64,000 bases of DNA, taken from the NCBI RefSeq assembly GCF_016918035.1, contig NZ_JAERWK010000025.1:1-64000 (forward strand), given 5' to 3'. Below are positions 3,780-33,507 of the stretch, one piece after another (positions within the stretch are counted from its first letter, which is position 1; each line of letters opens with the position of its first letter). The DNA is from Nakamurella leprariae. GTDB lineage: Bacteria; Actinomycetota; Actinomycetes; Mycobacteriales; Nakamurellaceae. Made by a program: the position numbers and the translations under genes. The notes below the pieces were generated by a model. It was not told the origin of the DNA. It was given only the letters and a program-made list of their open reading frames with translations, and made no database searches.

Positions 3780-4640
3780 ATGATCGAGACACTGGTGGTC
3801 GTGGAGCCATCGTCGGATGAACCGGGGGTCGGCCGCCGTCGGCGGCCGAGCTGGACGCGGCGCGGGAGTTGGTGTGCAGCTGGCCCGCGAGCGTGGTGTG
3901 GCGTTGACCGGCCCGGACGGGCTGCTCAAAGCGCTGACCAAGACCGTCATCGAGACGGCCTTGGACGAGGAGCTCAGCGAGCATCTGGGCTATGACAAGC
4001 ATGACGCGGTGGGCCGCAACGGCGGTAACTCCCGCAACGGCAAGCGGTCCAAGACGGTGTTGACCGATGCGGCCGGGGCGGTGCAGATCGACGTGCCCCG
4101 CGATCGGGACGGCACCTTCGAGCCGCAGCTGGTCAAGAAGCGGCAGCGGCGCCTGTCGGATGTCGACGAGGTGGTGTTGTCGTTGTACGCCAAGGGGTTG
4201 ACCACCGGCGAGATCAGCGCGCACTTCGCCGACGTGTACGGGGCCAGCGTGTCCAGCGTGTCCAGGGACACCGTCACCCGCATCATCGACCGGGTGCGCG
4301 AGGAGATGCAGGCCGGGTGGTCCCGACCGCCTGAGACCACCTATGCCGCGGTGTTCATCGACGCGATCATGGTGAAGATCCGTGACGGGCAGGTCCGCAA
4401 CCGGCCGGTCTGTGCCGCGATCGGCGTCGACTTGGACGGGCACAAGGACATCCTGGGCATGTGGGCCGGCGACGGTGACGGCGAGTCCGCGAAGTTCTCA
4501 TCTCGCCGTGCTCACCGAGCTGCGCAACCGGGGCGTGCGGGACGTGTTCTTCGTGGCCTGCGACGGCTTCAAAGGCCTGCCCGACAGCGTGTCTGCCGTG
4601 TTCCCGCTGGCCACGGTGCAGACCTCACCCGTCCACACTC
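3780..4640 (+). pseudogene. IS256-family transposase, decayed
   Basis: Pieces of one mutator-type transposase are spread over three frames: MIETLVVVEPSSDE from 3780, then ELDAARELVCS near 3848, then the long block LARERGVALTGPDG to DGESAKF (to about 4497), then LAVLTELRNRGVRDVF to TVQTS near 4630. At least three single-base frameshifts interrupt it, and the carboxyl third is absent. FIDAIMVKIRDGQV holds the first acidic catalytic region. The element is dead. It lies directly behind the aldo/keto reductase. Bases 4641-4794 between this and the next remnant show no recognisable content. Confidence 0.75.
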
Positions 4641-4794
4641 CCGTCGGCGGGAACGTCTCGCCGGTCACCGCACCACCGGGACAGGACCTCTGCAGACGCG
4701 TGCCTTCGAGGTACTCATGCAGGCCTTGTCCGTCCCGGTGGCGGCGGGCCGCGTAGTGGCCAGCGGGAGTTGCGCTTCGAGCGCCGTGGTGAGG

Positions 4795-5076
4795 TTCCAG
4801 CAGCCAGTCCGGGAAGTACGAGCCGGCCTGGAGCTTGGAGATCGCCACGTCCAGGGTGCCGGCCCGGGTGTCGAACTCCCGATGCCGGGAGCCGTTGCGC
4901 ACGTTGGTCCGCTCGGCCGAGCGGGTGCCGTACTCGGCGCCGCAGACCGAGTCGGCATCGGCCGACATCAGCGTGTTGATGAACGTGTCAACATCGAGCG
5001 CAGCAGATCAGGGCTGGCCTGGGCCAGCTGCTCGGGCAGGAAGTGGGCAGGGTCGATACTTGCTCGCAGCGGTCAT
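4795..5076 (-). pseudogene. Second IS256-family transposase, amino-terminal fragment
   Basis: On the minus strand an ATG at 5076 opens a transposase of a different IS256 subgroup: MTAAS, then LPEQLAQASPDLL, then DTFINTLMSADADSVCG, then EFDTRAGTLDVAISKL and YFPDWLLE. At least two frameshifts (near 5060 and 4990) separate these pieces, and similarity stops at about 4795. It faces the other transposase remnant. The carboxyl two thirds, including the catalytic DDE residues, are gone. Confidence 0.65.
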
Positions 5077-5200
5077 CGCGTCGGTCTCCTGGTTGGACTG
5101 TGAGAGGTCTCCACAAGATCACGCGATGGCCGCCCTTCCGTGGACGCCCCGCTGGTCACCGAGGCCGTCGCACACCACCTTGGTGGACGCCACTGAGTTC

Positions 5201-9937: not shown

Positions 9938-11362
9938 TCAGAAGACCGAGTGGGTGATCACGCCGCGGTAGGTGCCGGCCGGTTGGTCGAGCGGCACCGC
10001 GACGGTCACGGTCGGGCGCCAGGTGACCCAGCTGGCCGGTCCGCCGCCGGTCCAGCGCGCGGCCAGCCCGGGCGTCGCTGCGGACACCAGATCGCTGCCG
10101 GTGAAGGCGCCCAGGCCTGCTCGGGCGGCGACCGGACCGGGCGAGTAGGCCAGCCGGTCGGCCGGGATGGTGCGCCCGGAGCCGGCGGTGAACGCGGTCG
10201 CGGAGACCTCGACCGACCACTGGGCGTCGGACAGCGCCCGCTCGTCGACGACGGTGACCGGGCCCAGCTGCGCGGTCACGGACGTCCCCGGGGTGGCGCC
10301 ACCGAGTTCGGCCACACCGGGCACCGTCACCGACAGGGCGCCGGTGGCGACGGACACCTCGAGGCGCAGGTCGACCTGCTCGCCGGCGGGGTCGGTGGCC
10401 CGGGCGGTGAAGGAGTAGGCACCGGACTCGGCCGGCGTCCCGGTGATCGTGCCGGCCGGGTCCAGATCGAGCCCCGCCGGCGGGTGGTCCGCGGTCACCG
10501 TCCACGTCCACGGCCCGGGGCCGTCGGGTTCCGGCAGTGCCGCCGTGTAGGCCGTTCCGAGCCGGCCCGGCGGCAGGGTGACCAGGGCGGCGGTGCTCGC
10601 GCCGCGCAACGACATCGTCTGTGCCGCAGCAATGACGGCAGTGACGACGGTCGTTGGCTCGTCCGGGGCCGGTGTCGGGCCGGGCGGTCCCGGCGGTGGC
10701 GTGGAGACGGGGGCGGATGCGGGCGAGGCGCCGGCGACCGGGTCGGCGTCGGCTGGCTGATCGGGGAGTTGATCGCCGGGCTGGTGGGCGGACGTCACGG
10801 CATGGCCCGGTTCCGCCACCAACGGGTCGTGGATGTCGCTCGTTCCGGGTGGACCGGTCACGGTGGGTGGCGTTGCGATGATCACCGACGGTGACGACGG
10901 GGTGGACCCGGTCGGCGTGTCGACAGATGTGTCGCCCGTCGTCGTCGCGACGGCCGTGGTCTCGATCGGCGCAGTGGTGACGATCCCGTCCGTTGCTTCC
11001 GGCCGGTCGTCAGTACCCAGGGACAGCCCAGGAGCCGGCGCGCTCGGGGTGGTGGTCGACGGCGTGGTTGTGGCCGAGGCGGGTGCGGTGGACGACGACC
11101 CGTCGGGGACGGCCGCGGCGACCCAGCCGGTGCCGGTGACCAGCGCGATCACGACCATGGCGGTGGTCACCGCGAGTGTGCGGCGTCCGTTCCCGGGACG
11201 AGGTGGTGACGGCAGTGGGTGCCCGTGACGCCGTGTGGCGGCAGTCGGTGCAGCGAGGGGATGCGAGCCGGTGGGTCGGTCCGTGACGGAAGATCCTGCG
11301 CTCGCGGCCGGCGACCGGACCGGGCGGGCGCGGCGCCCGGTGGCGTCCTCGCTGTCGGTCAT
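9938..11362 (-). CDS. Membrane-anchored WxL-like surface protein
   Basis: A 474-residue protein. Residues 1-62 are basic and presumably cytoplasmic. One membrane segment follows at about 63-87 (TLAVTTAMVVIALVTGTGWV), then a low-complexity Ser/Thr/Pro stretch to about 245. An Ig-like putative domain follows (AGLDLDPAGTITGTPAESGA). The last 135 residues resemble the partner protein at 11522: both share a start like ALSVTVP, a mid part TIPxxxLxYxPG and the end WxPxxxVxVP...GTYxxxxTHS. This last block fits actinobacterial WxL-like domains. It is divergent from the two genes that complete the system. Surface attachment is inferred. Confidence 0.6.
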   Translation of the reverse strand: MTDSEDATGRRARPVRSPAASAGSSVTDRPTGSHPLAAPTAATRRHGHPLPSPPRPGNGRRTLAVTTAMVVIALVTGTGWVAAAVPDGSSSTAPASATTTPSTTTPSAPAPGLSLGTDDRPEATDGIVTTAPIETTAVATTTGDTSVDTPTGSTPSSPSVIIATPPTVTGPPGTSDIHDPLVAEPGHAVTSAHQPGDQLPDQPADADPVAGASPASAPVSTPPPGPPGPTPAPDEPTTVVTAVIAAAQTMSLRGASTAALVTLPPGRLGTAYTAALPEPDGPGPWTWTVTADHPPAGLDLDPAGTITGTPAESGAYSFTARATDPAGEQVDLRLEVSVATGALSVTVPGVAELGGATPGTSVTAQLGPVTVVDERALSDAQWSVEVSATAFTAGSGRTIPADRLAYSPGPVAARAGLGAFTGSDLVSAATPGLAARWTGGGPASWVTWRPTVTVAVPLDQPAGTYRGVITHSVF

Positions 11363-11521
11363 GGCGCCTCCTCCCCCGGATGGTGTTGATCACTATCATC
11401 ACCATGAGTGATTGATCAGCTACTGGCAAGAGGGGACGCTTCATGGCGATGGGCCGAGGTCTCGGCGCAGGGCCGCTGGTGGTACCGGCAGGCCATCTTC
11501 CTCTCACTGGAGTTCCTGATC

Positions 11522-12046
11522 ATGAAGAAGAGTGTGTTCGCCGTGGCCGGAATCGCCGCGGCCTCGATGGTCCTGTTCGCCCTGCCCGCCGCCGCCGAGG
11601 ACACCGAGGTGACCCTCGAGGTGACCGGCGGCGCTCTGGAGATCACGGTGCCGACGACCGCCGATCTGGGCACCTGGTCGATCACGGGCGCGGACCAGAC
11701 CGTGTCCGTCTCGCTCGGCAGCGTCTCCGTGGCCGATCTGCGTGGCGGTACGGCCGACTACGAGGTGCAGGTCGGCATGACCCCGCTGACCGACACGGTC
11801 GGTGGTGGCACCCTGCCGGAGAGCCTGGTCACCTACGACCCGGGTGCGGTGAACGCGACCACCGGCGGCGTGACCGTCGGTACGGCGAGCGTCATCACCA
11901 TGGACAACATCGCCCAGACGGTCTTCGACGTCAGCGGAGTGAACGGCTACAACGTGGTCAGCTGGACGCCCGAGCTGAGTGTCGACGTCCCGGCCGGGGT
12001 GCTCGCCGGCAGCTACGAGATGACCTTCACGCACTCGACCCTCTGA
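11522..12046 (+). CDS. Secreted WxL-like domain protein
   Basis: A 174-residue exported protein. Its signal peptide runs from MKKSVFAVAGIAAASMVLFA to a cut after PAAA. The mature part is a single beta-rich domain with SWTPELSVDVPAG and a closing MTFTHSTL, the arrangement of WxL-like domains found beside DUF916 proteins. ATG 11522 is preceded by GGAG at the right distance and the signal peptide begins there; upstream in-frame codons lack export features. It is 46 bases ahead of the DUF916 gene and likely in one operon with it. Confidence 0.7.
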   Translation: MKKSVFAVAGIAAASMVLFALPAAAEDTEVTLEVTGGALEITVPTTADLGTWSITGADQTVSVSLGSVSVADLRGGTADYEVQVGMTPLTDTVGGGTLPESLVTYDPGAVNATTGGVTVGTASVITMDNIAQTVFDVSGVNGYNVVSWTPELSVDVPAGVLAGSYEMTFTHSTL

Positions 12047-12092
12047 TCCATCCACCCGTCCCGAACTCGATCAGACTCGGGGGAGTCCGCTG

Positions 12093-13220
12093 ATGCGGGG
12101 TCGAGTCCGTCCACTCGCTGCGCTCGTCGCCCTGGTGCTCGGGAGCCTGCTCCTGGCACCAGGGCTCTCGGGTGCGACGGGGCCTGCCGCTGGGCCTGTC
12201 GCCGCCGCGCCGACCGGCGGACCCGGCACCGAGCCGTCGGGTGATGCCGCGGGGTCGAGCGGCTCCTTCGGGATCCGGCTGGCCGAGGTGCCCGCGGCCG
12301 CGGCCGACGATCCCCGGGCGCGCGTCTATCTGATCGACCACCTGGCTCCCGGGGCGTCGATCACCCGGCGCGTCGAGGTGTCGAACTCGACCACCACCGA
12401 ACAGACCATCGCCCTCGCGCCGGGCGGGGCCCGGGTGGTCGACGGACGGTTCACCCCCGACGATGCACCCGACGGGCAGGCGTCCGAACAGCTGGTCAGC
12501 TGGATGCGGCTGGAACCCAGCGCGGTGACCGTGCCGGCCGGCGGCCGGGCCGACGCGCAGCTGACCATCGACGTCCCCACCGACGCTCCACCCGGAGAGC
12601 AGTACGCCGCCGCGTGGGCGTCCATCACCAGCGCCTCCACGGCGGACGGAGGGGTGGCCACCACCAACCGGGTCGGGGTGCGCGTCTACCTCTCGGTCGG
12701 TCCGGGCGGTGCGCCCGCGTCGGACTTCACCGTCGACACCCTCACCGCCGAACGTGGCACCGACGGACGCCCGGCGGTGACCGCGGCCGTGCACAACACC
12801 GGCGGGCGGGCGTTGGACCTGCAGGGCACCGTCTCCCTGAGCGACGGCCCCGCGGGTCTGTCGGCCGGACCGTTCGCCATCACCCGGGCGACGACGCTGG
12901 CGCCGGGGGAGACCGGCACCGTCACCGTGCCGCTCGACCAGGGTCTGCCGGACGGCCCCTGGCAGGCCGAGGTCGAGGTGGCCAGCGGCTCGCTCACCCG
13001 CACCGCAGCGGCCACCATCACCTTCCCGCAGATCGGCGCGGCCGCCCCGGTCGCCGCCGAGCCGGTCGCCGACTCATCGGGATTCCTGGAGCGGAACTGG
13101 GGCTGGCTGGTCGCGGCCGCCGCGGTGATCGTCGTCCTGCTGGTCATGGTGATCGTGCTGCTGCTGCGCCGCCGGCCCGCCGAGCGCGCCGACGCCCCGA
13201 CGCGTGAGCCGGTCTCCTGA
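12093..13220 (+). CDS. DUF916-like membrane-anchored surface protein
   Basis: A 375-residue protein with a signal peptide (residues 1-28), a first beta domain (FGIRLAEVPAAAADDPRARV, LAPGASITRRVEVSNSTTTE), a second beta domain ending PAVTAAVHNTGGRALDLQG, a transmembrane helix at about 333-355 and a short basic tail (LLLRRRPAE). This layout is that of DUF916/WxL-interacting proteins, which in Firmicutes sit in operons with WxL proteins and tie them to peptidoglycan. GGGGGAG precedes the ATG. A hairpin follows directly after the stop. Confidence 0.7.
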   Translation: MRGRVRPLAALVALVLGSLLLAPGLSGATGPAAGPVAAAPTGGPGTEPSGDAAGSSGSFGIRLAEVPAAAADDPRARVYLIDHLAPGASITRRVEVSNSTTTEQTIALAPGGARVVDGRFTPDDAPDGQASEQLVSWMRLEPSAVTVPAGGRADAQLTIDVPTDAPPGEQYAAAWASITSASTADGGVATTNRVGVRVYLSVGPGGAPASDFTVDTLTAERGTDGRPAVTAAVHNTGGRALDLQGTVSLSDGPAGLSAGPFAITRATTLAPGETGTVTVPLDQGLPDGPWQAEVEVASGSLTRTAAATITFPQIGAAAPVAAEPVADSSGFLERNWGWLVAAAAVIVVLLVMVIVLLLRRRPAERADAPTREPVS

Positions 13221-13240
13221 GGGATCGCCTCATCGATCCC
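13221..13240 (+). terminator. Hairpin after DUF916 gene
   Basis: GGGATCG-cctcat-CGATCCC, a perfect seven-base stem, starts at the base after the stop codon. It probably ends the WxL/DUF916 transcript. Confidence 0.45.
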
Positions 13241-13334
13241 TCACCGTCTGCCGTTCTGCCGTTACGCTCCGCTGGTCATGCCGGTGTCGCCGACCTTCCG
13301 TGGGCAGCCGGCAGTCGGCGGTGAGGAGCGAGGC

Positions 13335-14276
13335 GTGACCGACCAGCGGACCCGGCGCCGGGCCGTCCTGCTCACCGCCGGGATGCTGACGCTGCTGCTC
13401 TCCGGGTGCGGGCGACCGGCCGACCCGGCCGTGGCGCCCACGCCTCCGGCGCCCACCGCGAGCTCGCCCACCGCGAGCTCGCCCACCGCGAGCTCGCCGA
13501 CCGTCAGCACGGCCGCCACCGTCGCCTCCACGGCGGCCCCCCTGCGCGAGTGCACCGCGGCCGCACTGCCCACCCGCATCGCCGGGGTGCTGACGGTGGC
13601 CACCGGGGCGTCCCGCGAGGCGCCATGGGTGCTCGGCGATCCGGCCGACGGTCAGGGCCTGGACGTCGAGCTCGTCGACCGGCTGGCCGCCTCGCTGGGT
13701 TGGACCGCAGACCAGGTCAGCTGGATCACCGCGTCGACGTCGGACGTCGACGCGTTCGACGTGCTGGTCGACCGGCACACCGCTGCCGAGGTGCAGGCGG
13801 CCGGGCTGGAACCATCGTCCGGCTACGCCGCCGACGCGGACGTGGTGCTGGTGGCGGCCGCGTCCGGCGCCGGTGCCGGTGGCCTCACCGCCGCCGACCT
13901 GGCCGACCAGCGCCTCGGGGCAGTCGCCGGCGCGGCCTCGGTCACCGACCCACAGGCGGTGGACACCCCGGGCGCCGTCGCGGTGCGCTACGGCTCGGTC
14001 GAGCAGGCCGCGGTCGGGATCGGCGCCGGCGAGGTGGACGCGGTGTTGGTCCCGCTCGCCCAGGCGTTCGATCCGTCGGTCGCGGCCGTGGGACTGACCG
14101 TGGCCGGCCGGCTCCCCGCCGGACAGTGGCAGCCCGAGCAGCTGGTGCTGGCGCTGCCGCCGGACTCGCCGCTCACCGCCTGCGTCTCGGCCACCCTCGA
14201 CAAGTTCCGCATCGAAGGAACGCTCGACGAGCTCGTCGCCATCTGGATCGACCCGGTGGCCCCCGAACTGTCCTGA
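13335..14276 (+). CDS. Orphan solute-binding lipoprotein (SBP_bac_3-like)
   Basis: A 313-residue lipoprotein: basic amino end RTRRRAVLLT, hydrophobic core, lipobox LLSGC, then a Thr/Ser/Pro linker. The body resembles periplasmic amino-acid-binding proteins (IAGVLTVATGASREAP, GLDVELVDRLAASLGW, LDELVAIW at the end). No permease or ATPase is nearby, so it may act as a sensor or scavenger rather than a transporter part. GTG 13335 has GAGGAG upstream and gives a normal signal length; ATG 13278, 9 bases after a TACGCT hexamer, is the alternative. Confidence 0.65.
   Translation: MTDQRTRRRAVLLTAGMLTLLLSGCGRPADPAVAPTPPAPTASSPTASSPTASSPTVSTAATVASTAAPLRECTAAALPTRIAGVLTVATGASREAPWVLGDPADGQGLDVELVDRLAASLGWTADQVSWITASTSDVDAFDVLVDRHTAAEVQAAGLEPSSGYAADADVVLVAAASGAGAGGLTAADLADQRLGAVAGAASVTDPQAVDTPGAVAVRYGSVEQAAVGIGAGEVDAVLVPLAQAFDPSVAAVGLTVAGRLPAGQWQPEQLVLALPPDSPLTACVSATLDKFRIEGTLDELVAIWIDPVAPELS
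13451..13495 (+). repeat. Three perfect 15-bp repeats in the lipoprotein linker
   Basis: The unit gcccaccgcgagctc occurs three times without a mismatch and encodes a repeated five-residue Thr-Ala-Ser-Ser-Pro unit just after the lipobox. Because the unit is a multiple of three, copy number can vary without breaking the frame. Confidence 0.85.
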
Positions 14277-26584: not shown

Positions 26585-27100
26585 ATGATCGAGATGCGCA
26601 TCGTCGGCGTCCGTGTCGAGATGCCCAATCAGCAGCCAGTTCTGGTGCTCACCGAGGTCGAGGGCAACCGGAGTCTGCCGATCCTCATCGGGTCGGCCGA
26701 AGCCACCGCGATCGCCATGCACCTGCAGGGGGTCCGACCCAGCCGGCCGCTCACCCACGACCTGCTCGGTCACGTCATCGCCGCCCTGGGGCACGCCGTC
26801 AGTCAGGTCCGGGTGGTCGACTTCCGCGAGGGCACCTTCTACGGCGAACTCGCCTTCGAGAACGGCACCACCGTCTCGGCCCGCCCGTCCGACGCCATCG
26901 CGCTCGCCGTCCGCGTGGAGATCCCGGTGTTCGTCGAGGAAGCCGTGCTGGCCGACGCCGGCATCGTCATGGGCGAGGACGGCGAGGAGGCGGCCGACGA
27001 CGCCGGCGCGTCCGGCGACGCCGTCAGCGACGAGGTGGAACGGTTCCGGGAGTTCCTGGACACCATCTCGCCCGAGGACTTCGGCGGTCAGAAGCCCTGA
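26585..27100 (+). CDS. Bifunctional nuclease family protein (DUF151)
   Basis: A 171-residue protein with the DUF151 domain: MRIVGVRVEMPNQQPVLVL, LPILIGSAEATAIAMHLQG, RPLTHDLLGHVIAALG, ARPSDAIALAVRVEIPVFV. Plant relatives have both RNase and DNase activity; the bacterial role is open. The acidic tail (MGEDGEEAADDAG) is typical for actinobacteria. ATG 26585 has GAAAGG before it. It equals Rv1829 by order. A TAGGTT hexamer at 26509 is probably its promoter. Confidence 0.85.
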   Translation: MIEMRIVGVRVEMPNQQPVLVLTEVEGNRSLPILIGSAEATAIAMHLQGVRPSRPLTHDLLGHVIAALGHAVSQVRVVDFREGTFYGELAFENGTTVSARPSDAIALAVRVEIPVFVEEAVLADAGIVMGEDGEEAADDAGASGDAVSDEVERFREFLDTISPEDFGGQKP

Positions 27101-27332
27101 TCGGCCGGTCGCCCGGCCGACCGACGGTGATCGCCGGGTAGTTGCCGGATGATGGCCGTCAGCCCGTTCGGGTGGAGGTTGCCGGTCGCGCACCGGACAC
27201 GCCGCCGCCAGCGTTGACGCTGCCCCGCCGCCCACCTACCGTGCCGAACTGCATGGTTGTCATTCCTCGGTCCCGCTCGGGACCGGGCGGTGCGGCGTGC
27301 GGACCGGTTGACGCGGCGGACGGGGGAGCACC

Positions 27333-27881
27333 ATGGGTGACGGCCAGGACGCGCTCTTCCCGTCCCCGGACGCGGCGAAGCAGGACGATTCGCTCGGCTA
27401 CCGCGGCACCACCGCCTGGCAGGCCGCCGGCATCACCTACCGCCAGCTCGACTACTGGGCCCGTACCGGCCTGGTCGTGCCCAGCGTGCGCAGCGCGTCG
27501 GGGTCGGGCACCCAGCGGCTGTACTCCTTCAAGGACATCCTGGTCCTCAAGGTGGTGAAGCGGTTGCTGGACACCGGCGTCTCTCTGCAGAACATCCGCG
27601 TCGCCGTCGACCACCTGCGCGCCCGCGGGGTCGAGGACCTGGCCGGGGTCACCCTGTTCTCCGACGGCACCACCGTCTACGAGTGCACCTCGCCGGAGGA
27701 GATCGTCGACCTGCTGCAGGGCGGCCAGGGCGTCTTCGGCATCGCCATCGGCGGCACCATGCGCGAGGTGACCGGATCACTGGCCGAGTTCCCGGCCGAG
27801 CGGATCGAGGGCGGCGAGGTGTGGGTGCCGCCGACGCAGGACGAGCTGTCCCGGCGCCGCAACGCCCGCAACGCCGGCTGA
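27333..27881 (+). CDS. MerR-family regulator (Rv1830-like)
   Basis: A 182-residue protein with a MerR helix-turn-helix (GITYRQLDYWARTGLVVPS, then SGSGTQRLYSFKDILVLKVV) and a short carboxyl domain (GVTLFSDGTTVYECTSPEEI, then GVFGIAIGGTMREVTGSL). It is the third regulator of the gcvH-garA-ftsR cluster. GGGGGAG precedes the ATG. In mycobacteria the equivalent gene is linked with growth control; target genes here are unknown. Confidence 0.8.
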   Translation: MGDGQDALFPSPDAAKQDDSLGYRGTTAWQAAGITYRQLDYWARTGLVVPSVRSASGSGTQRLYSFKDILVLKVVKRLLDTGVSLQNIRVAVDHLRARGVEDLAGVTLFSDGTTVYECTSPEEIVDLLQGGQGVFGIAIGGTMREVTGSLAEFPAERIEGGEVWVPPTQDELSRRRNARNAG

Positions 27882-27957
27882 CCCGTCCCGCAGACCTTCC
27901 GAGCCCGCCGTCCCGTTCCGGGGTGGTGGGCTCGCTGCGTCTTGGCGATCGACCCTT

Positions 27958-27989
27958 TCGTTAGTCGCGGTAAAGAGTTAGACTAACGA
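27958..27989. promoter_or_regulatory. MarR operator and leaderless promoter
   Basis: TCGTTAGTC (27958-27966) and GACTAACGA (27981-27989) are a perfect nine-base dyad. The -10 hexamer TAGACT (27979-27984) lies inside it and ends 6 bases before the ATG at 27991. A bound MarR dimer would therefore cover the promoter of its own gene and the co-transcribed exporter. Confidence 0.7.
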
Positions 27990-27990
27990 C

Positions 27991-28461
27991 ATGTCCGGTC
28001 TGCCTGCCCCCACCGCCCCCGTCCGCGCGGCCGGGCCGGCGCCGAACCCCGACACCATCAACACCCTGCGCGCCGCGGTCCTGGTCCTGGGCCGCCGGCT
28101 GCGCTACCAGACCGCCGACGGCGACATCTCCGCGACCGAGGGCGCGGTGCTCGGCCGGCTGTGCCGGGAGGGCGCCCTGACGCCCGGGGACCTGGCCCGC
28201 GGCGAGCACGTGCAGCCGCCGTCGATGTCCCGGATCATCGAGCGGCTCGAACAGCGTGGCCTCGTCACCCGCCGACCTCACCCGGAGGACCGCCGTCAGG
28301 TGCTCATCGAGCGCACCCCGGAGGGTGTGGCCTTCGCCGAGCGGTCGACGGCGGTGCGGACCGAGTGGCTCACCCGGCAGTTCGACCGGCTCTCGCCCCC
28401 GGACCAGCAGGCCCTGACCCGCGCCGCCGACGCCTTGCGACGGTTGTCGACCCTGTCATGA
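27991..28461 (+). CDS. MarR-family transcriptional regulator
   Basis: A 156-residue winged-helix regulator: NTLRAAVLVLGRRLRYQTAD, SATEGAVLGRLCREGALTPG, VQPPSMSRIIERLEQRGLVT (recognition helix), RRPHPEDRRQVLIERTPEG (wing). It shares four bases with the start of the MFS exporter gene, so it most likely represses an efflux operon. The mRNA is probably leaderless. Confidence 0.9.
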   Translation: MSGLPAPTAPVRAAGPAPNPDTINTLRAAVLVLGRRLRYQTADGDISATEGAVLGRLCREGALTPGDLARGEHVQPPSMSRIIERLEQRGLVTRRPHPEDRRQVLIERTPEGVAFAERSTAVRTEWLTRQFDRLSPPDQQALTRAADALRRLSTLS

Positions 28462-29900
28462 CCGACCAGCTCACTGACCGACCCACTGACCGCTCGGTAC
28501 CGTCCCGTCCCCAGGAGATGACCAGCACACCACCCTTCACCAGCACGCCCGCCCTCGCCACCACGCCCGCCGGCAGCGCCGCCTCCGCCACCACGCCGGA
28601 ACCGACGTCCGAGCCCGCGCGTCGCCCCTCCACGTTCGCCGCCCTGCGGATCCGCAACTACCGGCTGTACTTCGGCGGCCAGGTCGTCTCCAACACCGGC
28701 ACCTGGATCTCCCGCATCGCCCAGGACTGGCTCGTGCTGCAGCTCACCGGGTCGCCGCTGGCCGTCGGCATCACCACCGCGCTGCAGTTCGCGCCGATGG
28801 CCTTCTTCGGGTTGTGGGGCGGGCTCATCGCGGACCGGTACTCCAAACGCCGGCTGCTGATGATCACCCAGGTGGTGATGGCGGTCCTGGCCACCGTGCT
28901 GGCCGTGCTGGCGTTGACCGGCGCCGTCCAGGTCTGGCACGTCTACGCCGTGGCCCTCGGCATCGGCCTGGTCACCGTGGTCGACAACCCGGCCCGGCAG
29001 ACGTTCGTGAACGAGATGGTGCCGCGCGACCTGGTCCGCAACGCGGTCAGCCTGAACGTGGGCAACTTCCAGATGGCCCGGTTGGTCGGCCCGGCCGTCG
29101 CCGGGGTACTGATCAGTGCGGTCGGCGTGGGGCTGGCCTTCGCCGTCAATGCGGTGACGTTCGTGGCCGTGTTCTGTGCGCTGGCCGCCATCCGGTCTCG
29201 GGACCTGGTGCCGTCCGCGGTCGCGCCGAGGGGTCGCGGCCAGGTCCGGGAGGCGCTGCGGTACGCCGTGGCCGAACCCCGGGTGCGGTGGCCGATCGTG
29301 CTGATCTTCTTCGTGGGCACCTTCGGGTTCAACTGGCCGATCATCCTGTCCGCCTACACGCAGCAGGAGTTCGGCGGGCAGGCGCAGGTCTACGGGTGGC
29401 TGAACACCGCGCTGGCGGTCGGGTCGCTGGCCGGTGCGCTGCTGGCCGCGCGCACCACCTCGTCGCGGCTGTGGGTGCAGTTCGCCGCCGCGCTCGGCGT
29501 GGGGCTGCTGATCCTGGCCATGGGCCTGGCCCCGGGCATCGCCGTGTTCGTGGTGCTGCTGGTGGCCACCGGTGTGGTGTCCATCATGTTCAACAGCCTG
29601 AACAACTCCACCGTGCAGCTGGCCACCGATCCGGTGCTGCGCGGGCGGGTGATGAGCATCTACATGCTGGTCTTCATGGGCGGCATCCCGGTCGGCTCGC
29701 TCATCATCGGGGCGGTCACCGACGCGTTCGGACCGGCGGTCTCGCAGACGATCTCGGGTGTGATCATCGTGGTCGCCGCGCTGGCGTCCGGCGTCATCGC
29801 GATGCGCCAGGCCGGGCTGCGGCCGCACCTGGACCTGCACCGGGAGTCCGGTCACCTGATGACGATCACCCCGGTCGACGAGCGGGTCCGGGCCGCCTGA
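28458..29900 (+). CDS. MFS efflux transporter (MFS_3/EntS-like)
   Basis: A 480-residue transporter with a long Thr/Pro-rich cytoplasmic amino end and about eleven to twelve membrane helices. Typical motifs are RNYRLYFGGQVVSNTGTWI, GGLIADRYSKRRLL (motif A between helices 2 and 3) and VDNPARQTFVNEMVPRDLV. This subgroup exports siderophores or drugs. The ATG overlaps the MarR stop by four bases. Substrate unknown. It ends seven bases from the convergent VOC gene. Confidence 0.85.
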   Translation: MTDQLTDRPTDRSVPSRPQEMTSTPPFTSTPALATTPAGSAASATTPEPTSEPARRPSTFAALRIRNYRLYFGGQVVSNTGTWISRIAQDWLVLQLTGSPLAVGITTALQFAPMAFFGLWGGLIADRYSKRRLLMITQVVMAVLATVLAVLALTGAVQVWHVYAVALGIGLVTVVDNPARQTFVNEMVPRDLVRNAVSLNVGNFQMARLVGPAVAGVLISAVGVGLAFAVNAVTFVAVFCALAAIRSRDLVPSAVAPRGRGQVREALRYAVAEPRVRWPIVLIFFVGTFGFNWPIILSAYTQQEFGGQAQVYGWLNTALAVGSLAGALLAARTTSSRLWVQFAAALGVGLLILAMGLAPGIAVFVVLLVATGVVSIMFNSLNNSTVQLATDPVLRGRVMSIYMLVFMGGIPVGSLIIGAVTDAFGPAVSQTISGVIIVVAALASGVIAMRQAGLRPHLDLHRESGHLMTITPVDERVRAA

Positions 29901-29906
29901 TCCGGG

Positions 29907-30320
29907 TCAGCCGGGCCCGCCAGCACCGCCCGGCTGTCCGAGGTGCACGGTGAGCCCGTCGGGGTCGCGCACCTGCGCCGTCCGCTCACCCCAGGGCTGG
30001 TCCTGCGGTTCCTCCACCACCGGCACCCCGGCGGCCCGCAGCCGCTCGACGAGCACGTCGCAGTCGTCGGTGTACAACCAGATCGCGGCCGGGGCGTCGG
30101 ACGCGGGGCCGGCATCGGGGTTCGCGCCCAGCCCGAGGTGCGAGGCGCCCAGGGTCAGGCTCACGTAGTCGGCCGGGCCGGACTCGGGAAACCGGTACTC
30201 GACCACGCCGCCCAGCAGGTCGCGCCAGAAGGTCAGCGAGCGGTCCAGGTCCGGGGTGTTCAGGATCGGGAAGGCGGATGCGATCACGCCCCGCGTCGGT
30301 GCGGTGGTCGGTTCGGACAT
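29907..30320 (-). CDS. VOC (glyoxalase-fold) family protein
   Basis: A 137-residue protein: [73 protein letters not shown]. It fits the bleomycin-resistance/dioxygenase branch of the VOC superfamily. Its role is open. It is divergent from the gcvP riboswitch transcript. Confidence 0.75.
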
Positions 30321-30409
30321 GGCGTCAGCGTCCCGCGGTCGATCGGCGGGCGCATCCCGGCCGGCACCGCTGGCACGGCCCTTGGCAGGGTGCTCGGGTG
30401 GGCCCTTGG

Positions 30410-30560
30410 TAGATTGGCCGGCGTCGACGACCCCCGGCGGGAGAGTCCGAGCCCCCGATCAGCGTGAGCGATCGGTCGGGCCGGACGCCGAAGGAGCAAG
30501 CTCTCCCCGCCAATCTCTCAGGCCACAGAACCGCCGGGTCGAGACACCTCTGGAGCACCG
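30410..30560 (+). promoter_or_regulatory. gcvP promoter and glycine riboswitch
   Basis: TAGATT at 30410-30415 is a plausible -10. The transcript then contains the conserved core of the glycine aptamer: GCGGGAGAG near 30437, CGCCGAAGGAGCAA near 30487, AATCTCTCAGGC near 30511, and a partner segment ACACCTCTGGAG near 30544. The layout suggests a single full aptamer with a reduced second unit. Glycine binding would switch on gcvP. About 70 bases separate it from the gcvP start. Confidence 0.85.
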
Positions 30561-30630
30561 TCACGCGGGCGCGACAGAGGGGGAGGCGCCGGCGTCGACC
30601 GCGCCGCGCTCACCCTGGCGGAGGAGACGC

Positions 30631-33507
30631 ATGCACCCCGAACACTCGGCCGACCATCTGGCCCAGCAGTTCGCCGACCGGCACATCGGCCCCGACCAGG
30701 CCGGGCTGCAGGCCATCCTGGACGCCCTCGGGCAGCCGGACCTGGACGCGCTGGAGAAGGCCGTGGTCCCGGCCGTCATCCGCACCGGGCGGGCCGCCCG
30801 CCCGCTCGATCTGCCCGAGCCCGTCGGCGAGTCCGAGGCGGTGGCCGAGCTGCGCGCCCTGGCCGGCCGCAACCGCCCGATGGTGCAGATGATCGGGCTC
30901 GGCTACCACGACACCGTGGTGCCGCCGGTGATCGCCCGGAACGTGCTGGAGAACCCGGCCTGGTACACGGCCTACACGCCGTACCAGCCGGAGATCTCGC
31001 AGGGCCGGCTCGAGGCGCTGCTCAACTTCCAGACCGCGGTGGCCGACCTGACCGGGCTGCCGGTGGCCAACGCCTCCATGCTCGACGAGGGCACCGCGGC
31101 CGCCGAGGCGATGACCCTGCTGCGCAGGACCATGCGGTCCAAGTCGTCCCGCTTCCTCGTCGACGCGGACACCCTGCCGCAGACCAAGGCCGTGCTGGCC
31201 ACCCGGGCCGAGCCGCTGGGGATCGAACTGGTCGAGGCCGATCTCTCCGGCGGCATCGAGGAGTTCGGAGTCGGCGACTGCTTCGGGCTGCTCATCAGCT
31301 ACCCGGCCGCGTCCGGCGCGCTGCGCGACCACCGGGCGATCATCGACGCGGTGCACGCCCGCGAGGCCGGCGTCGTGATGGCCACCGACCTGCTGGCCCT
31401 GACCATGATCACGCCGCCCGGCGAGGTGGGGGCCGACATCGCCGTGGGCTCCTCCCAGCGGTTCGGCGTGCCGCTGGGCTTCGGTGGCCCGCACGCCGGG
31501 TTCATCGCCGTCCGGCCGGAACTGCAGCGGCAGCTGCCCGGCCGGTTGGTCGGCGTGTCCAAGGACGACGCCGGCGCGCCCGCGTACCGGCTGGCCCTGC
31601 AGACCCGCGAGCAGCACATCCGCCGGGAGAAGGCGACCAGCAACATCTGCACCGCGCAGGTGTTGCTGGCCGTGATGGCCGGGATGTACGCCGTCTACCA
31701 CGGGCCGGCCGGGCTGCGCCGGATCGCCGACCGGGTGCACCGGCAGGCCCGGTTGCTCGCGGTCATGCTCGGGGCCGCGGGCGTCGAGCTCGAGCACGAC
31801 GCGTGGTTCGACACCCTGCGGCTGCGCGTCCCCGGCCGGGCCCGGGCGATCGGGGCCGAGGCCCGGCGCAACGGTGTCAACGTCTGGGTCGACGGCGAGG
31901 ACGCGGTCCAGGTGTCGGTGTCGGAGGCGACGACCGAAGAGCACCTGAGCGCCGTGCTGGCCGCGGTCACCGCGGACCGGGTCAACTGGGGACTCGCGCC
32001 GGGGACGGCGGTGCCGCACTCGCTGCGCCGGACCTCGCCGTACCTGACCCACCCGGTGTTCTCCGCCCACCACAGCGAGACGTCGATGCTGCGGTATCTG
32101 CGCCGGCTGTCCGACAGCGACCTGGCGCTGGACCGGACCATGATCCCGCTCGGCTCCTGCACGATGAAGCTGAACGCGACCAGCGAGATGCTGGCCATCA
32201 GCTGGCCCGAGTTCGCCGGCATCCACCCGTTCGCGCCCGCCGAGGACAGCGCCGGCTACCGCGAGCTGATCGACCAGCTCAGCGCGTGGCTGTGCGAGAT
32301 CACCGGGTACGCCGCGGTGTCGTTGCAGCCCAACGCCGGGTCGCAGGGCGAGCTGGCCGGCCTGCTGGCCATCCGCGCCTACCACCGTTCTCGCGGCGAC
32401 GAGCACCGCACCGTCTGCCTCATCCCGGCGTCCGCCCACGGCACGAACGCGGCCAGCGCCGTCATGGCCGGCATGAAGGTGGTCGTCGTCCGCACCACCG
32501 ACTCCGGGGACGTCGATCTCGAGGACCTGCGCGCCAAGGTCGGGCAGCACCGGGCCGAGCTGGCCGCCATCATGATCACCTACCCGTCCACCCACGGGGT
32601 GTTCGAGGACTCGGTGAGCGAGCTGGCCGAGCTGGTGCACGAGGCCGGAGGGCAGGTGTACGTCGACGGGGCGAACCTCAACGCCCTGGTCGGGGTGGCC
32701 CGTCCGGGCGCGTTCGGTGGCGACGTCTCGCACCTCAACCTGCACAAGACCTTCTGCATCCCCCACGGCGGCGGGGGACCCGGGGTCGGTCCGGTCGCGG
32801 TGGCCGAGCACCTGGCGCCCTTCCTGCCCAACCATCCGCTGGACCCGGGCGCGGGCCCGGCCACCGGAGTCGGCGCGATCGCCGCGGCCCCGTTCGGATC
32901 GGCTTCGATCCTGCCCATCTCGTGGGCCTACATCCGGATGATGGGCGCCGACGGCCTGCGGCGCGCCACGCTCACCGCGATCGCCTCGGCCAACTGGCTG
33001 GCCCGGCGCCTCGACCCGGTGTTCCCGGTGCTCTACACCGGAGCGGCCGGCGCGGTGGCGCACGAGTGCATCCTCGACCTGCGGCCGTTGACCAGGGCGA
33101 CCGGTGTGACCGTCGACGACGTGGCCAAGCGACTGGCCGACTTCGGCTTCCACGCACCGACCATGTCCTTCCCGGTGGCCGGCACGCTCATGGTCGAGCC
33201 GACCGAGAGCGAGGACCTGGCCGAGCTGGAGCGGTTCGTCGACGCGATGACAGCCATCCGTGCTGAGATCGACGAGATCGCCGCTGGCGCCTGGCCGGTC
33301 GAGCAGAGCCCGCTGCGGCGCGCACCGCACACCGCGGCCGTGCTGGCCGGCGACTGGGACCGGCCGTACAGCCGCGCCCAGGCCGTGTTCCCGCACGGGG
33401 TCGACCCGGCGCACAAGTACTTCCCGCCGGTGGGCCGCATCGACGGGGCCTTCGGCGACCGCAACCTGGTGTGCTCCTGCCCGCCGCCGGAGGCCTTCGA
33501 GTCCTGA
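30631..33507 (+). CDS. gcvP: Glycine dehydrogenase (decarboxylating), P protein
   Basis: A 958-residue single-chain P protein that decarboxylates glycine and passes the aminomethyl group to GcvH. The amino half starts [20 protein letters not shown]. The carboxyl half carries the pyridoxal phosphate lysine in [17 protein letters not shown]. Other landmarks are [18 protein letters not shown] and [27 protein letters not shown] precedes the ATG. It is controlled by the glycine riboswitch upstream. Confidence 0.95.

Follow-up and report, generated by a model that had tools for sequence, protein, structure and literature searches.

A three-gene locus of Nakamurella leprariae belongs to a motif-divergent branch of the WxL/WxLIP system

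The subject of this analysis is a stretch of 64,000 nucleotides from Nakamurella leprariae (Actinomycetota; contig NZ_JAERWK010000025.1, positions 1 to 64,000), which is called the window below. In the list of its open reading frames (ORFs) and their translations, three adjacent genes encode the proteins P0001, P0002, and P0003. The locus is genuine, and these genes belong to a conserved branch of the known WxL/WxLIP surface-protein system in which the motifs have diverged. Most probably, P0002 is the small subunit, P0003 a membrane-tethered partner, and P0001 a large, stalked WxL protein; all three would be exported, P0003 would capture WxL-like domains, and P0001 would be displayed. The branch, which the Pfam WxL model mostly misses, occurs in many actinobacterial families; it widens the range of the system and offers models beyond enterococci and listeriae.

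The genes of P0001 and P0002 are divergent, with 159 bases between them, and P0002 and P0003 are co-directional and separated by 46 bases. An earlier annotation made from the sequence alone (the original prediction) had proposed three neighbouring genes, one of them divergent. All three ORFs were confirmed, and the GC contents at the three codon positions were coding-like (P0001, 0.70/0.69/0.86; P0002, 0.62/0.51/0.92; P0003, 0.75/0.62/0.89).

WxL-like domains of P0002 and P0001

An alignment of 52 small WxL-like proteins with P0002 as the first row (A3) was compared with an alignment of eight WxL proteins (A5), of which two originate from Paenibacillus plasmids and six from four genomes of the same phylum. 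The Paenibacillus plasmid sequences were used instead of Lactobacillales WxL sequences, of which none were obtained. Six of the eight A5 proteins exceed the curated Pfam cut-off for WxL (PF13731, 25 bits), and two (L137 and L143) are below it. The profile-profile comparison using hhalign resulted in a probability of 98.7 and an E-value of 1.7e-16. In addition, a profile of close relatives of P0002 found, within a small ORF set from 17 loci, a Paenibacillus plasmid protein named 'WxL domain-containing protein' (E-value 1.4e-9), which itself scores 30.1 bits in Pfam and thus lies above the cut-off. The same profile also found the C-terminal domains of larger proteins encoded beside more distant WxLIP genes, among them that of a protein of locus L046, which is located in the same genome as the window and exceeds the cut-off with 38.7 bits. 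The protein of locus L135, where a WxLIP gene adjoins, passes it with 28.7 bits. Furthermore, the WxL model was touched at an E-value of at most 0.1 by 6 of the 19 members of a further alignment, A2 (P0002 included).

The original prediction had also stated that the two WxL-like domains of the locus align end to end, and this was borne out by an alignment of 154 columns with 34% identity (E-value 2e-6). The C-terminal domain of P0001, which is not a row of A3, matched the A3 profile with an E-value of 4.6e-36. As a query against its own genome, P0001 retrieved only itself. Together, the sequence comparisons firmly indicate that P0002 and the P0001 domain are WxL homologues despite their Pfam scores below the cut-off.

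Motifs were counted in 115 WxL-like domains, which were also used for the strand score and the tree described below; they remained after 5 of 120 rows (truncated or ambiguous ORFs) had been dropped, and longest-frame ORF calls may include false N-terminal extensions. Eighty-one of the genes, including that of P0002, lie directly upstream of a WxLIP gene (the operonic class), and 34 are others. The Trp of the first motif was kept in 114 of the 115 domains, and Leu was replaced by Ala in 90. The second motif near the C-terminus is given as YXXX(L/I/V)TWXLXXXP in PMC5817068. In the register taken from that motif, which in its canonical form runs on to a Pro, the domains read Y-x-x-x-x-T-H-S-V, with Tyr in 114, His for Trp in 102, Ser in 106, and Val for Leu in 102 of the 115 cases. 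The chain ended exactly two residues past the Ser of H-S-V in 109 domains. An Asp-x-Arg ahead of the first motif, described as a conserved WxL feature (PMC1534035, PMC9772566), was found in both classes (Asp in 81/81 and Arg in 79/81 operonic genes, 28/34 and 27/34 in the others). The corresponding motifs are Y-E-V and H-S-T in P0002, and W-S-V and H-S-V in P0001. As the W-x-L motifs have been altered to W-x-A and H-S-V, the proteins represent a divergent branch and not a textbook member of the family.

The WxLIP-like partner P0003

For P0003, three alignments were used, i.e. 12 rows including P0003 (A1), 42 WxLIP-like rows (A4), and a distant WxLIP alignment (A6). A structural model built with 42 sequences had a mean predicted local distance difference test score (pLDDT) of 85.2 and a predicted template modelling score (pTM) of 0.73, and the strands of this model were read as two beta-sandwiches. 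Its first three Foldseek matches in the PDB were WxLIP structures of Enterococcus faecium, one of them titled as bound to a long WxL protein. The best were 9i25 (chain C) and 9i1y, with an E-value of 4.5e-11 and, in a second comparison, Z-scores of 15.7 and 15.5. The superposition covered 240 residues at 18% identity with a root mean square deviation (rmsd) of 7.3, from which it follows that the domain packing differs or is mispredicted. Among the profile searches of PDB sequences, A6 alone found 9i25/9i1y, and A1 (with P0003), A2, and A5 retrieved no WxL or WxLIP chain. On the basis of its predicted fold, P0003 can be assigned with good confidence as a WxLIP homologue.

R193, in a strand that presumably corresponds to the chaperone G1 strand of pilus systems, was invariant in all 42 A4 rows; R75, Y79, and D82 were invariant in the 12 A1 rows, and only R75 among these remained so in A4. 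The N-terminal motif NQIDKxxxYFDLK is absent from P0003, which has DDPRARVYLIDHL there instead. The Pfam model WxLIP_PGBD (PF06030, cut-off 27.3 bits) was touched by 5 of the 12 A1 members, P0003 included, and PF11797 (DUF3324) had no Pfam match to the P0003 sequence.

A carboxyl membrane helix of P0003 had been proposed, and the model indeed contains a predicted C-terminal helix (Table 1); in 42 of 42 A4 rows a C-terminal hydrophobic stretch is followed by at least two Lys or Arg residues. An ordinary stop-transfer anchor fits this conservation. It has been proposed that the WxLIP helix enters host membranes (PMC10599100); contrary to that proposal, the sequence of the helix and its basic tail looks like that of an ordinary anchor by which the protein stays in the membrane of the bacterium itself.

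Two further WxLIP-like clusters are present in the same genome (L047, G000:C5, about 184893-190897; L046, G000:C6, about 27059-31900). Both encode large WxL proteins (379 to 1127 amino acids), and their WxLIP-like proteins, at 30.1 and 41.1 bits, exceed the PF06030 cut-off. A small WxL-like ORF was not found in the stretches covered at these two loci.

Distribution and conserved neighbourhood

When named genomes were scanned using the WxLIP alignment, 325 relatives were obtained, and the best 78 loci, which are not a sample of the 325, were kept. A WxL-like ORF was found in 76 of these best 78 loci, and 32 of them contained two or more (a raw count that includes a doubtful ORF of 95 residues in L107). 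For L110 and L121 no WxL ORF was found, and the WxLIP ORF of L110 starts at the contig end. The 78 loci stem from many families, e.g. Pseudonocardiaceae, Frankiaceae, Streptosporangiaceae, Micrococcaceae, and Nocardiaceae, and the record of L074 is labelled Bacillota.

The original prediction had suggested a survey of co-occurrence across Actinomycetota. In 296 genomes of this phylum only the best-ranked candidates per genome were scored, so the counts are lower bounds. The WxL-like profile A3 had matches in at least 26 genomes, the WxLIP-like profile A4 in at least 58, and both in at least 23, compared with about 5 expected (Fisher p 1.4e-15); the Pfam WxL model exceeded its cut-off in 5 of the 296. 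Of 43 WxL places, 38 were no more than 5 kb away from a WxLIP place, and 33 were on the same strand. The two genes thus co-occur and are neighbours, as had been anticipated. In 61 nearer genomes, P0002 had matches in 8 and P0003 in 15 (11 with E-values below 1e-57), and a P0002 match was found in 3 of 17 genomes of the same genus, the window's own counted.

WxL proteins have been placed in Lactobacillus (PMC4449606), PMC5817068 assigns them chiefly to Lactobacillales and Bacillales, and the system has been described as a host-adhesion system found to more than 91% in Firmicutes, mostly gut commensals (PMC9772566). The view that it occurs mainly in Firmicutes, also held in the original prediction, agrees with the last of these papers, but it has to be qualified by the divergent form that occurs across many actinobacterial families. 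Some actinobacterial relatives are already named 'DUF916 domain-containing protein' in PLSDB, so the DUF916 half is not unknown in actinobacteria. Among the open-licence PMC papers listed in literature searches, no title or opening of an abstract dealt with WxL clusters in Actinomycetota or with WxL donor strands.

Several results weigh against the assignment of the locus. In Pfam, P0002 reached 16.5 bits with the WxL model and P0003 16.1 bits with PF06030, both below the cut-offs; the P0001 domain scanned alone had no WxL match, and an NCBIfam search yielded nothing useful. The literal W-x-L motifs are absent, with W-x-A and H-S-V in their place, and P0002 is alone among the 81 operonic genes in that Tyr replaces the Trp of the first motif. 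The model of P0002, built with 52 sequences (mean pLDDT 89.2, pTM 0.76), had a best Z-score of 8.3 in the PDB, which the tool rates as possibly generic, and Foldseek E-values were no better than 7e-3; the matches listed did not include the 9i25 WxL chain. Moreover, 35 of the 58 WxLIP-like genomes had no A3 match (most of their WxLIP matches are weak, that of G281 is strong), 3 of the 26 WxL genomes had no WxLIP match, and the two same-genus genomes with the locus contained one WxL ORF each; P0001 therefore has no counterpart there. The family names of the original prediction thus stand through homology to accepted WxL domains and through the fold match to a solved WxLIP structure, but not through the Pfam models themselves; the profile search proposed for the trio remained below the cut-offs, and the profile comparison was positive.

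Could the proteins simply be unrelated secreted Ig-like proteins that resemble WxL and DUF916? The sub-threshold Pfam scores and the low-complexity sequence would fit this explanation, but it is disfavoured by the profile-profile match, the WxLIP structure match, and the co-occurrence, and we regard it as highly improbable.

Proposed mechanism and alternative readings

A scheme for the locus can be proposed as follows. P0001, P0002, and P0003 would be exported, and P0003 would be retained in the bacterium's own membrane via its C-terminal helix. On the outer side of this membrane, P0002 and P0001 would be captured by P0003 via their WxL-like domains, presumably by a WxLIP strand that is inserted into the WxL-like domain. 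The complex would then display P0001, and in related loci other cargo domains, with the stalk and the Ig-like domain held away from the WxL-like domain. Two observations from Bacillota are consistent with this scheme. A membrane protein of an E. faecium WxL cluster binds two WxL proteins, one small and one large, in vitro (cited in PMC5817068 and PMC9772566), and in AlphaFold2 predictions of a Bacillota complex a WxLIP strand inserts in parallel orientation into a gap of the WxL domain and completes its sandwich (PMC10599100).

The fold matches of the two models taken together pose a direct question: do WxLIP proteins donate a strand to WxL subunits in the manner of pilus chaperones? Following the two E. 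faecium structures, matches 3 to 38 of the P0003 model were 36 entries or complexes of periplasmic pilus chaperones (Z-scores 12.5-10.8), aligned over both domains. They included YadV, CupB2, SafB, Caf1M, FimC, SfaE, DraB, PapD, and CsuC; that the matched chain is the chaperone was deduced from its length and range. The P0002 model had, judged by titles, 33 chaperone-usher pilin entries (Z-scores up to 8.3), 6 archaeal tube or TLP filament entries, and 1 fibrillar-adhesin domain among its 50 listed matches, and in 6k73 and 6fqa one chain matched P0002 and its partner chain P0003. The pilin matches of P0002 are weak alone; together with the chaperone matches of P0003 the predicted folds are suggestive. 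In an usher-less arrangement of this kind, P0003 would complement WxL-like domains with a donor strand, P0002 would form chains by its N-terminal strand, and P0001, without a free strand, would be a terminal, tip-like subunit. We consider this arrangement rather doubtful for the present locus. The general form, in which WxL/WxLIP loci of Actinomycetota and Bacillota would be usher-less chaperone/pilin-like assembly systems of monoderms, with WxLIP as tethered PapD-type chaperone, small WxL proteins as pilin-like subunits with a donor strand, and large WxL proteins as tip subunits, is likewise a tentative proposal.

The sequences provide evidence on both sides. A stretch of the type T-x-T-F-x-V-T-G between signal peptide and core, scored by leaving out one row at a time, was kept in 80 of the 81 operonic genes, which include those of P0002 and the large L056 protein, and was missing in 14 of the 34 others, among them P0001. 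The other 20 keep the pattern, five of them through the final strand of an Ig domain located ahead of the core, one through a Thr-rich stalk, and one doubtfully. If these seven are included, the strandless label comprises 21 rows and requires 11 changes on a tree of poor resolution; domains that lack a free strand thus seem to have evolved repeatedly. A subunit with the strand together with a terminal subunit without it fits the need of a donor-strand polymer, and the strand insertion predicted for Bacillota (PMC10599100) points in the same direction. However, the score was trained on the operonic class, the rows are related, and the large L056 protein is within the 81. A cruder count with a partly misplaced anchor found at least two alternating hydrophobic residues in 68/81 operonic and 18/39 other genes, and P0001 had 3/3 because the last He_PIG strand lies there. 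Several of the 20 non-operonic genes that keep the pattern encode small single-domain proteins. A simple fusion of domains to the front would give the same pattern, yet several of the 14 are single-domain proteins as well. The structural matches also allow a more trivial interpretation. A Z-score of about 8 may mean only a common beta-sandwich, as the P0002 list also contained 8 GH123-type enzymes and 2 integrins. The P0003 model was also matched by GH123 and RbmA chains, and the AlphaFold2 monomer of P0002 has no DSSP strand at residues 28-36. To our knowledge, no WxL filament is known.

A different role would be that of a non-covalent peptidoglycan anchor, with P0003 merely stabilizing the WxL-like domains and with neither strand exchange nor a polymer. 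This has a substantial chance of being correct, if somewhat below an even one. Bacillota WxL domains are reported to bind the wall non-covalently, to be present in the medium, and to bind to other cells in trans (PMC5817068, citing Brinster 2007; PMC4449606); the trans binding to cell surfaces also argues against a pilin-like role. Wall binding is the view of PMC9772566 and PMC10599100, and the C-terminal position of the domain behind varied cargo suits an anchor. But wall binding alone does not account for the conservation of a WxLIP partner with a PapD-like fold, nor for the WxL-like domain ending at a fixed C-terminal position. The wall-anchor and the chaperone/pilin-like readings are mutually compatible.

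The proposed capture and display by a tethered WxLIP partner has its closest counterpart in the WxL/WxLIP (Csc) clusters of Bacillota, e.g. E. faecium locus A and L. plantarum cscA-D. These share small and large WxL proteins, the C-terminal position of the WxL domain, the D-x-R, and a WxLIP protein with two beta-sandwiches and a C-terminal helix, with 9i25/9i1y as the best, though at sequence level distant, structural match. In contrast to them, the actinobacterial loci have the W-x-A and H-S-V motifs, are mostly missed by the Pfam WxL and WxLIP models, and carry other cargo. With PapD/FimC-type systems, P0003 shares the two-domain fold, and P0002 has pilin-like matches; in a profile search of PDB sequences the P0003 alignment had no match to chaperones. 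Unlike those systems, P0003 would be membrane-tethered, and neither an outer membrane nor an usher is expected. As a paralogue with additional N-terminal domains, P0001 presumably resembles tip adhesins. Strand complementation has precedents in TasA/TapA of the Gram-positive Bacillus subtilis and in archaeal threads, although families and partners differ. TLP-1a, which we take to be TasA-like, was among the matches of the P0002 model.

Gene calls and features of the locus

The features are summarized in Table 1. The start of P0002 was set at the ATG at 11522, which is preceded by GGAG; the ORF list contains an upstream start at 11408. GGGGGAGGAGG precedes the ATG of P0001, and residues 1-62 of this protein have GC contents of 0.74/0.79/0.73, which are not coding-like. 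P0001 as a whole was considered as a spurious ORF, and this was rejected in view of its GC content of 0.86 at the third codon position and its domain homologies. An ORF on the opposite strand (10833-11228), which a crude gene caller favoured over P0001, was set aside because P0001 has two recognised domains.

Table 1. Coordinates of the features of the locus in the window, and loci with EAL/GGDEF neighbours
Feature	Position	Strand	Basis
P0001, large (stalked) WxL-like protein, 474 aa	9938..11362	-	ORF; alignment to P0002; He_PIG; A3 profile match
P0001 C-terminal WxL-like domain	9941..10348	-	Alignment to P0002, A3 profile; strand preceding core is that of He_PIG
P0001 He_PIG (Ig-like) domain	10349..10564	-	PF05345, E 6.3e-12, 46.2 bits (cut-off 24) in a scan of the fragment
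P0001 Ser/Thr/Pro/Ala-rich stalk, residues 86-262 (177 residues)	10577..11107	-	63% S+T+P+A
P0001 hydrophobic segment, residues 67-85	11108..11164	-	Kyte-Doolittle 19-residue maximum 1.92; candidate signal anchor or signal peptide
Divergent intergenic region P0001/P0002	11363..11521	.	Between gene ends
P0002, small WxL-like protein, 174 aa, signal-peptide-like N-terminus (by eye)	11522..12046	+	
P0002 alternating stretch, residues 28-36, candidate donor strand	11603..11629	+	Sequence pattern
P0003, WxLIP-like (DUF916-like) protein, 375 aa	12093..13220	+	
P0003 first beta-sandwich (DUF916/PGBD position; PapD-like domain 1), about residues 59-205	12267..12707	+	Model; fold matches; boundary approximate
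P0003 strand 191-202 with invariant R193, inferred place of pilus-chaperone G1 strand	12663..12698	+	Model; A4
P0003 second beta-sandwich (DUF3324/HBD position), about residues 206-313	12708..13031	+	Model secondary structure
P0003 C-terminal helix, residues 336-359, then basic tail	13098..13169	+	Model; A4
EAL/GGDEF genes by WxL/WxLIP loci	L057, L063, L064, L066, L072, L092, L094, L098, L099, L100, L102, L118; L144-L146		

P0001 consists of an N-terminus of 62 residues, a hydrophobic segment, the stalk, the He_PIG domain, and the C-terminal WxL-like domain; its N-terminal hydrophobic helix ends with WVAAAVPDG and may be either an uncleaved anchor, as in the type II anchor of the original prediction, or a signal peptide. 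A Pfam scan of the whole protein found no domain, He_PIG included, and the fragment scanned alone yielded the match given in Table 1. The Ser/Thr/Pro stalk and the Ig-like domain had been described correctly. The designation of the stalked protein as an unusual member has to be abandoned: 'large WxL' proteins are regular in Bacillota clusters (PMC9772566) and occur in several actinobacterial loci. A low-complexity stalk is combined with a WxL-like domain also in L090, L115, and L124, so P0001 is one of a recurring kind.

Cargo and neighbours of related clusters

The cargo ahead of C-terminal WxL-like domains is modular and comprised HtaA, lactonase-like propeller, Ig, ice-binding-like, RCC1, laminin-G, FG-GAP, fn3, and He_PIG domains. 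In the Paenibacillus plasmid cluster, the C-terminus of an RCC1 protein matches WxL weakly, at 20.8 bits and short of the cut-off. In L049 (4634-6139), an HtaA domain, which we take to be haem-binding, is fused to a C-terminal WxL-like domain, and a WxLIP gene adjoins. In L056 (7434-9926; Cryobacterium), a gene for an ice-binding-like domain with a C-terminal WxL-like domain lies between the small WxL gene and the WxLIP gene. A DUF916 gene of a Cohnella plasmid (L147, 7896-8867) is part of a run with a TadA pilus ATPase; no WxL protein is annotated in the stretch shown.

In 12 of the 78 loci, genes with EAL/GGDEF patterns were located at most 3 kb from the cluster, a count that was made after such genes had been noticed and in which the L100 match is unconfirmed. 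They made up 14 of 360 near genes compared with 4 of 472 farther genes (p 0.0034). Pfam confirmed six actinobacterial genes that were scanned, one of which, in L106, lies outside the count of 12 loci. An Arthrobacter plasmid and Paenibacillus plasmids also have such neighbours, and none was seen among the neighbouring genes read beside the cluster of the window. These neighbours, enzymes of c-di-GMP (cyclic di-GMP) metabolism, are a hint of regulation.

Within the window, a lipoprotein-like gene (13278-14276, plus strand) with a weak match to solute-binding family 3 (22.0 bits, cut-off 26.4) directly follows P0003 on its 3' side. Farther upstream, the start of an ORF at 3817-5103 (plus strand) resembles what we take to be a mutator-type (IS256-like) transposase.

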